A DNA stretch of 64,000 nucleotides. Source: Psychroflexus maritimus. GTDB lineage: Bacteria; Bacteroidota; Bacteroidia; Flavobacteriales; Flavobacteriaceae. The notes below the pieces were generated by a model, which was given only the letters and a program-made list of their open reading frames with translations, did no database searches and had not been told where the DNA came from. The stretch lies in the NCBI RefSeq assembly GCF_011089875.1, contig NZ_JAANAS010000094.1:1-64000 (forward strand), in the 5' to 3' direction. Position numbers and translations under genes: made by a program. This document shows, piece by piece, positions 1-63,728 of this stretch (its first letter is position 1; every line of letters begins with the position of its first letter).

Positions 1-1521
<1,521 letters not shown>

Positions 1522-1650: not shown

Positions 1651-1755
1651 CGTTTGAAATTCTAAGAAAGATTTCTATTTAAAAAAAACTTCCTGCTTTT
1701 CGCTGATTTAAAAACCTCTCAATTCCTAAACCTCGTGTCGCCCTCAAAGCGGGTG

Positions 1756-1785
1756 CAAAAGTAATACTAATTTTTAATCTAACAA
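1756..1785 (-). promoter_or_regulatory. rRNA operon promoter P1 (proximal)
   Basis: On the minus strand, TTG (1785-1783) is followed by a 19-nt spacer and TACTTTTG (1763-1756), an exact match to the Bacteroidota -7 consensus TAnnTTTG. The -7 box is followed directly by CACCCGC, an element also found at P2 and, as CACTCGC, at the rpsA and tRNA-His promoters. Confidence 0.8.
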
Positions 1786-1848
1786 GTCTTTTTTTGAAAA
1801 AAATTAAACTAATCTTAAAAGAACTTTTACTCAATTTATTTGCGGGTG

Positions 1849-1880
1849 CAAAACTACAACCTTTTTAAACCCTAAACAAA
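1849..1880 (-). promoter_or_regulatory. rRNA operon promoter P2 (middle)
   Basis: On the minus strand, TTTG (1880-1877), a 20-nt spacer and TAGTTTTG (1856-1849) match the Bacteroidota consensus, again followed directly by CACCCGC. It lies about 93 bp upstream of P1 in the same orientation, as expected for tandem rRNA promoters. Confidence 0.75.
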
Positions 1881-1949
1881 TTTTGTGAAGATTATTTTTA
1901 AGTTAATTTTACGCTATTTCTCAATGAACTTTTACCACTTTCGGGACAG

Positions 1950-1981
1950 CAAAAATACTACCTTTTTTACACATCTTCCAA
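1950..1981 (-). promoter_or_regulatory. rRNA operon promoter P3 (distal)
   Basis: On the minus strand, TTG (1981-1979), a 21-nt spacer and TATTTTTG (1957-1950) match the consensus. The sequence after the box is CTGTCCCG rather than CACCCGC, so it belongs only loosely to the P1/P2 type. Spacing to P2 is about 101 bp. Confidence 0.6.
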
Positions 1982-8410: not shown

Positions 8411-8486
<76 letters not shown>

Positions 8487-8511
8487 GTTTAAGCATTACT
8501 AAATGCGAGTG

Positions 8512-8540
8512 CAAATTTAACCTTTATTTTCTTATTGCAA
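8512..8540 (-). promoter_or_regulatory. tRNA-His promoter
   Basis: On the minus strand TTG (8540-8538), an 18-nt spacer and TAAATTTG (8519-8512) match the Bacteroidota consensus and are followed directly by CACTCGC, the element shared with the rRNA and rpsA promoters. The tRNA begins about 25 nt downstream. Confidence 0.7.
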
Positions 8541-50580: not shown

Positions 50581-52413
50581 TTACTTTCCTTCCATTTTAT
50601 CTTTTAGAGCTTGAAGCTCTGCGTTAGCATCACCAAGAGTAGTTTTCTGACTTTCGTCTTTTGCTTTCTTAGCCGCTGTCTTCACTATTTTTTGCTCTTC
50701 TTCTTTGAACATTACAGTGTGTGAAGCAACTACACGTTTAAATTCCTTATTGAACTCAATGATTTGGAATTCTGCTTCTTCTCCTTTTTTCAACTTAGAG
50801 CCATCTTCTTTTTCTAAATGTCTTCCAGGAATAAATGCAGTAACATCTTCATTAAATTCAATAGTAGCTCCTTTATCAACCATTTCTGTTATTGCAGCAG
50901 TATGCTTAGTACCTACAGCAAATTCAGTTGCATAATCATCCCAAGGGTTTTTCTCAGTTTGTTTATGACCAAGGCTTAATTTACGACCGTTAACGTCTAA
51001 TTCAAGAACAACAACGTCTAATTTATCACCTACTTTACAGAATTCTGATGGGTGCTTGATTTTCTTAGTCCAAGATAAATCAGAAATGTAAATTAATCCA
51101 TCAATTCCTTCTTCTAATTCTACAAAAACACCAAAATTAGTAAAGTTTCTAACTTCACCTGTATGTTTAGAACCTACAGGGTACTTTTCAGTAATATCAG
51201 TCCAAGGATCTGGAGTTAATTGTTTAATTCCGAGTGACATTTTGCGATCTTCTCTATCTAGAGTAAGAACTTTAGCTTTTACTTTATCACCCACTGTCAC
51301 AAAGTCTTGAGCTGATCTTAAGTGTGTGCTCCAAGACATTTCAGAAACGTGTATTAATCCTTCAACGCCTTCTTCAACTTCAATAAATGCACCGTAATCT
51401 GCAATTACAGTAACCACGCCTTCTACTTCATCTCCTTCTTTTAATTCAGGATTTAAGGCTTCCCAAGGGTGTTTGCTCAATTGTTTTAATCCAAGTTGAA
51501 TTCTTGTTTTGTCTTCATCAAAGTCTAAAATTACCACATTAAGTGTTTGATCTAACTCAACAACTTCGTTAGGGTGGTTAATTCTTGACCATGAAAGGTC
51601 TGTAATATGAACTAATCCGTCAACTCCTCCAAGGTCAACAAATACACCGTAAGAAGTGATGTTTTTCACCACACCTTCTAGTACTTGACCTTTTTCTAAT
51701 TGACCAATAATTTCTTTTTTCTGCTCTTCAATATCAGCTTCAATAAGTGCTTTGTGCGAAACAACAACATTTTTAAATTCGTGATTAATTTTCACTACTT
51801 TAAATTCCATTGTTTTGCCAACGTAAGCATCGTAATCGCGGATTGGCTTCACATCAATTTGAGAACCAGGTAAGAAAGCTTCAATACCAAACACATCTAC
51901 AATCATACCACCTTTAGTTCTGCACTTCACAAAACCTTTTACAATAGTACCATCTTCTTGTGCATTGTTCACTCTTTCCCAAGCTTTAATTACTCGAGCT
52001 TTTCTGTGCGAAAGAATTAATTGTCCTTCAGCATCTTCTCTTACATCAATAAGTACATCTACGGTATCGCCTACTTTTAAGTCGGGATTATACCTAAACT
52101 CATTTAATGAAATAACACCTTCACTTTTTGCATTGATGTCAATGATAGCGTCTTGATCGGTAAGATTTACCACAGTGCCTTCAACCACCTCATTGTTAAG
52201 TGTTTCTACGAAGTTTTCAGCGACTAATTTTTCAAATTCATTTAACTTTTCATCCTCTACTTCCTCAATTCCTTCTTTGTAGCGATGCCAATCAAATTCT
52301 TTTAAAAATTGTTCTGGATTTTGTTGCTGCGCAGAGGCTTGCAACTTATTTTGGTTAGTTTGTTCTTGAGCTACGTCTTGCGTTTGCTCTTCTTTTTTTA
52401 CTTCTTCAGCCAT
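50581..52413 (-). CDS. rpsA: 30S ribosomal protein S1
   Basis: S1 binds single-stranded mRNA and helps load it on the ribosome. The 610-aa product has a Gln/Lys/Glu-rich N terminus and six S1 (OB-fold) domains, recognisable from their openings: GTVVNLTDQDAIIDI, GFVKCRTKGGMIVDV, GVVKNITSYGVFVDL, GVVTVIADYGAFIEV, GEVRNFTNFGVFVEL and the degenerate AAITEMVDKGATIEF. The length is that of full S1; Bacteroidota S1 has the complete set. The leader is about 111 nt and starts with a 10-bp palindrome (52515-52524). S1 takes on greater weight in an organism whose anti-Shine-Dalgarno is altered. Confidence 0.96.
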   Translation of the reverse strand: MAEEVKKEEQTQDVAQEQTNQNKLQASAQQQNPEQFLKEFDWHRYKEGIEEVEDEKLNEFEKLVAENFVETLNNEVVEGTVVNLTDQDAIIDINAKSEGVISLNEFRYNPDLKVGDTVDVLIDVREDAEGQLILSHRKARVIKAWERVNNAQEDGTIVKGFVKCRTKGGMIVDVFGIEAFLPGSQIDVKPIRDYDAYVGKTMEFKVVKINHEFKNVVVSHKALIEADIEEQKKEIIGQLEKGQVLEGVVKNITSYGVFVDLGGVDGLVHITDLSWSRINHPNEVVELDQTLNVVILDFDEDKTRIQLGLKQLSKHPWEALNPELKEGDEVEGVVTVIADYGAFIEVEEGVEGLIHVSEMSWSTHLRSAQDFVTVGDKVKAKVLTLDREDRKMSLGIKQLTPDPWTDITEKYPVGSKHTGEVRNFTNFGVFVELEEGIDGLIYISDLSWTKKIKHPSEFCKVGDKLDVVVLELDVNGRKLSLGHKQTEKNPWDDYATEFAVGTKHTAAITEMVDKGATIEFNEDVTAFIPGRHLEKEDGSKLKKGEEAEFQIIEFNKEFKRVVASHTVMFKEEEQKIVKTAAKKAKDESQKTTLGDANAELQALKDKMEGK

Positions 52414-52528
52414 TGAAGATTAAATTTGTATTCTGTACGTTCAAGGAAATTTAAGCAGAAACACACAGAAGTTGTTTTACATTAGATTACTGAAGCTCAA
52501 GCATTTCCTCTTAGCGCTTAAGCGAGTG

Positions 52529-52561
52529 CAAAAGTAATAATTTTTTTTTATCAAAAAACAA
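52529..52561 (-). promoter_or_regulatory. rpsA promoter
   Basis: On the minus strand TTG (52561-52559), a 22-nt spacer and TACTTTTG (52536-52529) resemble the Bacteroidota consensus, followed directly by CACTCGC as at the tRNA-His promoter and, with one change, at rRNA P1 and P2. The -33 spacing is at the long end. Confidence 0.65.
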
Positions 52562-63515: not shown

Positions 63516-63545
63516 TTGCTACACTAGACAAAGATTGTATATTTG
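63516..63545 (+). promoter_or_regulatory. SRP RNA promoter
   Basis: TTG (63516-63518), a 19-nt spacer and TATATTTG (63538-63545) match the Bacteroidota consensus. Four nt separate the box from the predicted RNA 5' end, so this site calibrates promoter-to-start spacing in this genome. Confidence 0.8.
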
Positions 63546-63549
63546 CAGC

Positions 63550-63643
63550 GGCAAGTCCCACACAACCAGCTCCTGTTGAATCCCCCAGGGCGGGAACGCA
63601 GCAAGGGTAAATGGTCGTAGCGGTGTGATGTGGGTAGCTTGCC
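63550..63643 (+). ncRNA. ffs: signal recognition particle RNA (4.5S type)
   Basis: The 94-nt sequence begins GGCAAG and ends CTTGCC, closing a single long hairpin; the opposite arms pair over most of their length (GTCCCACAC with GTGTGATGTGGG). The loop part contains CAGGGCGGGAACGCAGCA, the conserved binding site for the protein Ffh with the GGAA tetraloop. It is the small bacterial SRP RNA, which delivers membrane proteins to the inner membrane. A T-rich run follows immediately. Confidence 0.93.
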
Positions 63644-63728
63644 ATTTTTTATTATCCTTTCGTTTCAAATTTTTATTTCATACACTACTATTTATCTCCA
63701 AAATTCTTACTTTTGAAAAAAATATAAT

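Follow-up and report, generated by a model that had tools for sequence, protein, structure and literature searches.

The DNA analysed here (the window) is a stretch of 64,000 nucleotides of Psychroflexus maritimus that carries a 16S rRNA gene, a tRNA-His gene, rpsA and an SRP RNA gene, each with a candidate promoter in front (Table 1). The sequence TTTGCACYCGC occurs four times in the window, always on the minus strand (1749-1759, 1842-1852, 8505-8515 and 52522-52532); dinucleotide shuffling gives a mean of 0.05 copies and none of 100 shuffles reached at least four. At each of these sites TANN lies directly 5' of the element and a TTG is found 18 to 22 nt upstream of the resulting box, the 22 nt at rpsA being an untypical spacing. 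The original prediction had placed the element at both rRNA promoters as CACCCGC and at rpsA and tRNA-His as CACTCGC, and all four positions were as claimed, with an association that proved stronger than the one put forward.

Two further sites had been overlooked. The promoter of the SRP RNA carries CAGCGGC, a GC-rich relative of CACYCGC with two mismatches, and the Rfam RF04183 match begins inside its box, while the terminal stem GGCAAG/CTTGCC, read by eye, suggests that the 5' end of this RNA lies about 4 nt past the box. The other is a box upstream of P1, which may be a further rRNA promoter and is followed by CTGTCCC, a C-rich stretch that differs from CACYCGC. The element is absent from the promoters of FKBP (box 22661, then CAAGGAA), HU (box 59850, then CTGTAAA) and yqgE (box 60225, then CAGTGTT), which bears out three of the four protein-gene examples that had been named as lacking it; the proteins S1, HU, FKBP and YqgE were named from whole-protein scans.

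Table 1. Genes and candidate promoters of the window that bear on the element.
Feature	Positions	Strand	Basis or upstream motif
rRNA P1: -7 box TAGTTTTG, then CACCCGC	1842..1856	-	TTG 20 nt upstream
rRNA P2: -7 box TACTTTTG, then CACCCGC	1749..1763	-	TTG 19 nt upstream
Possible third rRNA promoter upstream of P1 (predicted): box TATTTTTG (1957-1950), then CTGTCCC	1943..1957	-	TTG 21 nt upstream
16S rRNA gene (promoters P1 and P2)	1..1521	-	Rfam RF00177
tRNA-His promoter: TAAATTTG, then CACTCGC	8505..8519	-	TTG 18 nt upstream
tRNA-His(GTG)	8411..8485	-	ARAGORN
rpsA promoter: TACTTTTG, then CACTCGC	52522..52536	-	TTG 22 nt upstream
rpsA, 30S ribosomal protein S1	50581..52413	-	NCBIfam NF004953
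SRP RNA promoter: TATATTTG, then CAGCGGC	63538..63552	+	
SRP RNA	63550..63648	+	Rfam RF04183 match 63542-63648

The position of the element relative to the start of transcription can be predicted from F. johnsoniae, in whose probable-promoter set the box is placed at -12 to -5 and transcripts start 4 or 5 nt after it (PMC6847099). By this spacing, CACY would occupy -4 to -1 and CGC the predicted positions +1 to +3, a register which the SRP RNA fits, given that its terminal stem opens 4 nt past the box (by eye). The -33 and -7 boxes found here are those of the consensus of sigma-ABfr, the primary sigma factor of the Bacteroidota (TTG / TANNTTTG), but the consensus as given for that factor stops at the box (PMC6847099), whereas the translation promoters described here add a C-rich region. 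Similarly, the sigma-A variants SM1-3 of Flavobacterium psychrophilum are variants around TAnnTTTG, as is the case here, and may, according to their authors, have a role in the regulation of promoter activity (PMC9723704); unlike the present element, none of them appears to be tied to tRNA, rRNA or ribosomal-protein genes in the main text of that paper.

The genome of P. maritimus (2.59 Mb in 126 contigs) was searched for TANNTTTGCACYCGC, with the reversed 15-mer as a control; the pattern gave 15 matches and the control none. Searching for TTTGCACYCGC without mismatches led to the same 15 places, i.e., every exact copy has a TANN box in front of it, and allowing up to one mismatch raised the count to 60, with 37 in the control, which makes most of the one-mismatch sites background. 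All 15 exact copies stand at translation promoters, namely those of 12 tRNA units, rRNA P1, rRNA P2 and rpsA, and the proposal that the element marks the promoters of the translation machinery is thus upheld at the scale of the genome. The 12 tRNA copies lie 4 to 105 nt before units identified with ARAGORN (Met, Lys, Asp, Ser-Pro twice, Gly-Leu, Val, Gln, Phe, Leu, Asn and His).

When the 34 tRNA genes were grouped by eye into 25 units, 24 of which have a box and entered the tally (the unit at C82:102 is a tRNA-Met by ARAGORN), 12 of the 25 were found to carry the exact form and 13 to be without it. In many of the latter the box is followed by a C-rich variant, for example CAACCGC at Glu, CGATCGC at Arg, CACACCG at Thr-Tyr-Gly-Thr-tuf, or CCGTCCG or CCAACTC at others, and the Gly(TCC) and Leu(CAA) units are only weakly C-rich. 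The Ala and Ser(GGA) units have a box with no C-rich stretch after it, and Arg(TCG) has no box in the 110 nt examined, which means that the claim for stable-RNA promoters stands in its exact form for about half of the tRNA units, the others having variants or nothing.

The specificity of the element was evaluated in 877 kb of the same genome containing 1621 TANNTTTG sites, a non-random sample in which C38, C49, C82 and C93 had been picked for their copies of the element and parts of C34, C60 and C71 for near matches or for the S10 operon. The complete core, CYCGC, follows 12 of the 19 stable-RNA boxes (two of which, C49:147066 and C82:26629, are likely to be spurious second boxes), a single one of the 284 protein-gene boxes, that of rpsA, and 1 of 1221 boxes inside genes. 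When the window, where the motif had been defined, is left out, the figures become 10/17 and 0/255 for stable-RNA and protein-gene boxes, respectively (Fisher p 4e-14), and when the picked stretches are left out as well they become 10/16 and 0/224; the core is therefore not equally frequent elsewhere. The G+C content of its five positions (-2 to +3) is 0.77 at stable-RNA boxes, 0.27 at protein-gene boxes and 0.36 at boxes within genes, and a TTG is present 17-22 nt upstream of 14 of the 18 stable-RNA boxes of the sample.

The upstream half of the 11-mer behaves in a different manner. In the 57 protein-gene boxes that have a -33 TTG, the first base after the box is C in 49% and the second is A in 58%. 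Given that ordinary promoters also favour CA after the box, TTTGCA appears to be partly generic and CYCGC the specific part, and the 11-mer that had been proposed as a specific mark keeps that standing only in its CYCGC portion.

The exact element recurs in related genomes. Judged by the S1 protein, the nearest named relatives belong to Psychroflexus (87% identity, Flavobacteriaceae), and matches were found in 74 of 148 genomes of the order and in 121 of 392 of the phylum. All of the 48 genomes of the same family, the present one included, are positive, with a total of 604 matches where the reversed pattern gives 5, and family f25, of the same class, is equally rich (11 to 23 matches per genome in five genomes), whereas outside the class the counts stay at 0 to 2 per genome and resemble the control. 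The 63 matches in 56 loci of relatives are distributed as 28 before tRNAs, 10 before 16S genes, 14 before open reading frames, 6 at contig ends and 5 unclear, and the open reading frames include rpmH, prfC and typA, although most of the 14 have no shown tie to translation. In one complete relative genome (G048), all 18 copies precede a tRNA (12) or rRNA/16S (6), and in a member of f25 (G482) all six fetched copies, of 10 listed and 23 in total, precede tRNAs.

At rpsA, the form of the element varies among relatives. The 450 nt upstream of the match were compared in 80 named relatives, of which 79 have a box, and similarity to CACYCGC was 6/7 in one, 5 in 53, 4 in 21 and less in four. CACYCGC itself was found in none of the 80 within these 450 nt; CACTCCT is the commonest form (44) and the presumed +1 is C in 78 of 79. 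Thus, the claim that rpsA shares the element survives as a common theme of C-richness and fails for the exact heptamer, and the CACTCGC of the present rpsA looks to be specific to the lineage. The pattern TANNTTTGCACYCCTTTT, i.e., CACYCCTTTT, gave 48 matches in 40 of 60 genomes of the family against one in the control, and 30 of its loci comprise 22 rpsA, one tRNA-Val, two rpsP, one mnmG, two mtaB, one tig and one without a gene name, so that rpsP, mnmG, mtaB and tig add six further translation-related loci. Many of the rpsA leaders in this set (loci L301-L330) continue right past the C-rich region with AGCG (TTTTAGCGA or similar), which may point to an S1 leader element.

A comparable picture emerges at rpsL, which opens the long str-S10 gene row of this genome and for which 29 of 30 loci of the family were tallied (the own locus included, and one without a start left out). 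The nearest box is followed by C in all 29, the presumed +1 is C in 28 and +2 in 26, a pyrimidine stands at both +3 and +4 in every one of them, and one relative (L387) has CACCCGC itself. The 16S promoters were examined in 24 loci, in one of which (L333) the start was not found and three of which had fewer than 140 bases upstream; the 23 loci used yielded 37 boxes from 18 genomes of the class, the present one included, keeping only boxes with a TTG at 17-22 nt. Here -4 is C in 36 of the 37, -1 is a pyrimidine in all, 35 have C at the presumed +1, and +2 is C in 28 or G in 7, with forms such as CACCCCC and CAGCCCC elsewhere in the class.

Within the own genome, C-rich regions also stand before rplS, prs-rplY-pth, gltX, rimO and rpsL. 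Sixteen protein-gene boxes are C-rich, and seven of these belong to translation (prs with its row, gltX, rpsA, rplS, rpsL, rimO and truA), or 4 of 12 when the picked stretches are removed, against 1 of 20 sampled C-poor promoters (proS, a translation gene that lacks the C-rich stretch), the other 19 having been judged by eye and most of the gene names coming from N-terminal pieces, many below curated full-length cut-offs. The C-rich exceptions outside translation are porG (CACCCTT) and a TetR-type regulator (CCGCCCA). A C-rich region is thus shared by translation promoters across the class, and CACYCGC is the form that it takes at the stable-RNA promoters of flavobacteria. The exact 11-mer was dropped as a functional unit, given that CA is already favoured at ordinary promoters, that rpsA in relatives mostly has CACTCCT or near forms, and that 16S promoters elsewhere in the class have CACCCCC, CAGCCCC and similar forms.

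We consider it likely that CACYCGC covers the discriminator and the transcription start (about -4 to +3) at primary-sigma promoters, and that its C-rich form has been selected at the promoters of the translation machinery, coupling them to growth. In this mechanism, the box TANNTTTG would melt readily and the adjoining stretch, C-rich on the non-template strand, would be costly to open and would fail to make good contact with sigma region 1.2, with the result that open complexes at these promoters would be short-lived. Initiation would hence depend on the nucleotides that begin the transcript and on factors that act at the secondary channel of the RNA polymerase, and the rRNA, tRNA and key ribosomal-protein operons would for this reason rise and fall together with growth. 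The sigma factor has D, L and Q at the positions aligned with R99, M102 and R103 of E. coli, which are named as residues of sigma region 1.2 in that species (PMC7822876). Like the comparisons of ppGpp site 1 and DksA below, this one is relevant to whether the E. coli model can be transferred to the present lineage.

The model for this reading is E. coli, in which GC-rich discriminators lead to short-lived open complexes and are a feature of promoters sensitive to DksA and ppGpp (PMC7822876, PMC9304144). The stringent stable-RNA promoters of the rrnB P1 type are likewise GC-rich in the stretch from the -10 type box to the start point, and both systems have this stretch at rRNA, tRNA and ribosomal-protein promoters and rarely at ordinary ones. 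By the E. coli measure of a GC-rich discriminator, rpsA, rplS and rpsL are C-rich here, together with the G+C of 0.77 at stable-RNA promoters. Unlike the rrnB P1 type, however, the present promoters have an unusual primary sigma, with TANNTTTG as its box, and a non-template strand that is mostly C.

A second difference from E. coli is that the polymerase seems to be without the residues of ppGpp site 1, which we take to be the MAR end of omega together with R417, K615, D622 and their neighbours in beta'. In beta', the changes are R362K, R417K, K615P, I619E and Y626S, with D622 kept in a stretch (615-626) that aligns weakly, and the omega-like protein has no MAR start; site 1 thus looks lost. 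The key residues of the DksA/ppGpp site 2 are, we assume, R91, K94, K98 and the tip residues D74 and A76 of DksA, with N680 and K681 of beta'. The genome has one divergent DksA-like protein, in which a gapped alignment shows R91 and K94 kept, K98 replaced by D, the tip changed (D74N, A76L) and one of the four zinc cysteines left, and on the beta' side N680 is kept and K681 is replaced by Q. Given the changes at site 1 and the divergence of the DksA-like protein, a ppGpp route of the E. coli type cannot be assumed, and the signal may be ppGpp acting through the DksA-like factor, the level of nucleotides, or both.

A dependence on nucleotides would have a parallel in the GTP-sensing rRNA promoters of the Firmicutes, whose output is tied to the first nucleotide, a logic shared with the present promoters if it holds here. 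That type starts with G, whereas the presumed first base here is C in 35 of the 37 16S boxes. A GTP start on the G of CGC was considered, and G is found at that place in 7 of the 37.

A more specific version, which we regard as doubtful, is that rRNA, tRNA and ribosomal-protein transcripts start with C throughout the class, the messages within a pyrimidine run (CCYY in rpsL, often CCTTTT in rpsA), and that the translation machinery is set by the supply of CTP or by a polymerase step specific to C starts, rather than by ATP or GTP. Ribosomal-protein messages of eukaryotes begin with a 5' terminal oligopyrimidine tract, of which this would be an independently reached look-alike.

The growth-coupled discriminator must be weighed against other readings, the strongest being that the C-rich region is merely part of the strongest promoters, with fast clearance and high output and no regulatory role. 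This is rather unlikely, even though most of the carriers are probably highly expressed genes and the GC-rich discriminator of E. coli also aids promoter escape (PMC7822876), given that the region is also found at genes for translation enzymes whose expression is presumably lower (gltX and rimO here, mnmG and mtaB in relatives). The HU promoter also tells against it. HU is usually an abundant protein, and its promoter is without the element.

It is quite improbable that a dedicated DNA-binding regulator recognises CACYCGC beside the -7 box, as might be supposed from the seven nearly invariant bases common to 15 unrelated promoters of the genome. The element lies inside the region that is melted by the RNA polymerase, and the drift among CACYCGC, CACTCCT, CAGCCCC and CAACTCC fits base composition better than a protein site.

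We give very little weight to an action in the RNA, in which the CGC or pyrimidine run at the start of the transcript would set the stability, processing or translation of the message. The transcripts of rpsA and rpsL would indeed begin with C and a pyrimidine tract if they start 4 nt past the box, but conservation already sets in ahead of the presumed start, at C-4, A-3 and Y-1. The 5' leader of tRNA and rRNA transcripts, furthermore, is cut off during maturation.

Finally, common descent, recent duplication or chance, for which the shared letters alone would speak, was set aside as practically negligible in the light of the shuffles, the 15 copies against none in the reversed control, promoter flanks that by eye differ from one another all the way from -33 to the gene, and the recurrence of the association in further genomes, those of a second family of the class among them.

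The preferred reading of a growth-coupled discriminator bears on a subject that seems little described, namely how the Bacteroidota tie ribosome production to growth. A search of openly licensed papers found, among the matches listed, none that dealt with the discriminators of rRNA promoters in this phylum, and the matches listed for the letters of the element were unrelated by their titles and the beginnings of their abstracts. GC-rich stable-RNA discriminators are known from E. coli; the form, sigma context, C bias and gene list described here were not found among those matches. Since a list of predicted genes accompanies the element, and the polymerase of this lineage seems to be without ppGpp site 1, alternatives to the E. 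coli model become testable in laboratory strains. It also offers a sequence rule for predicting growth-linked promoters, which would help in choosing between constant and growth-tied expression in these bacteria.

Some tRNA units of the genome have structural features of their own. Between promoter and gene, the tRNA-Arg(TCT) unit (G000:C49:153293-153394, minus strand) has a degenerate partial copy of tRNA-Arg(TCT) and the tRNA-Asn unit (G000:C93:74785-74904, minus strand) one of tRNA-Asn (both by eye), and in both copies the anticodon arm is replaced by a TCCCG...CGGGA palindrome. Between tRNA-Lys and tRNA-Leu(GAG) (G000:C38:150361-150566), a piece resembling the 3' end of tRNA-Lys is repeated around an insert, TATCCCGTGATAG...ATACGGGA (by eye), which is perhaps of the same kind. 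At G000:C38:84462-87054, tRNAs Thr-Tyr-Gly-Thr are followed on the same strand by tuf, tRNA-Trp and nusG, an arrangement that closely resembles thrU-tyrU-glyT-thrT-tufB-secE-nusG of E. coli, with tRNA-Trp here placed after tuf.
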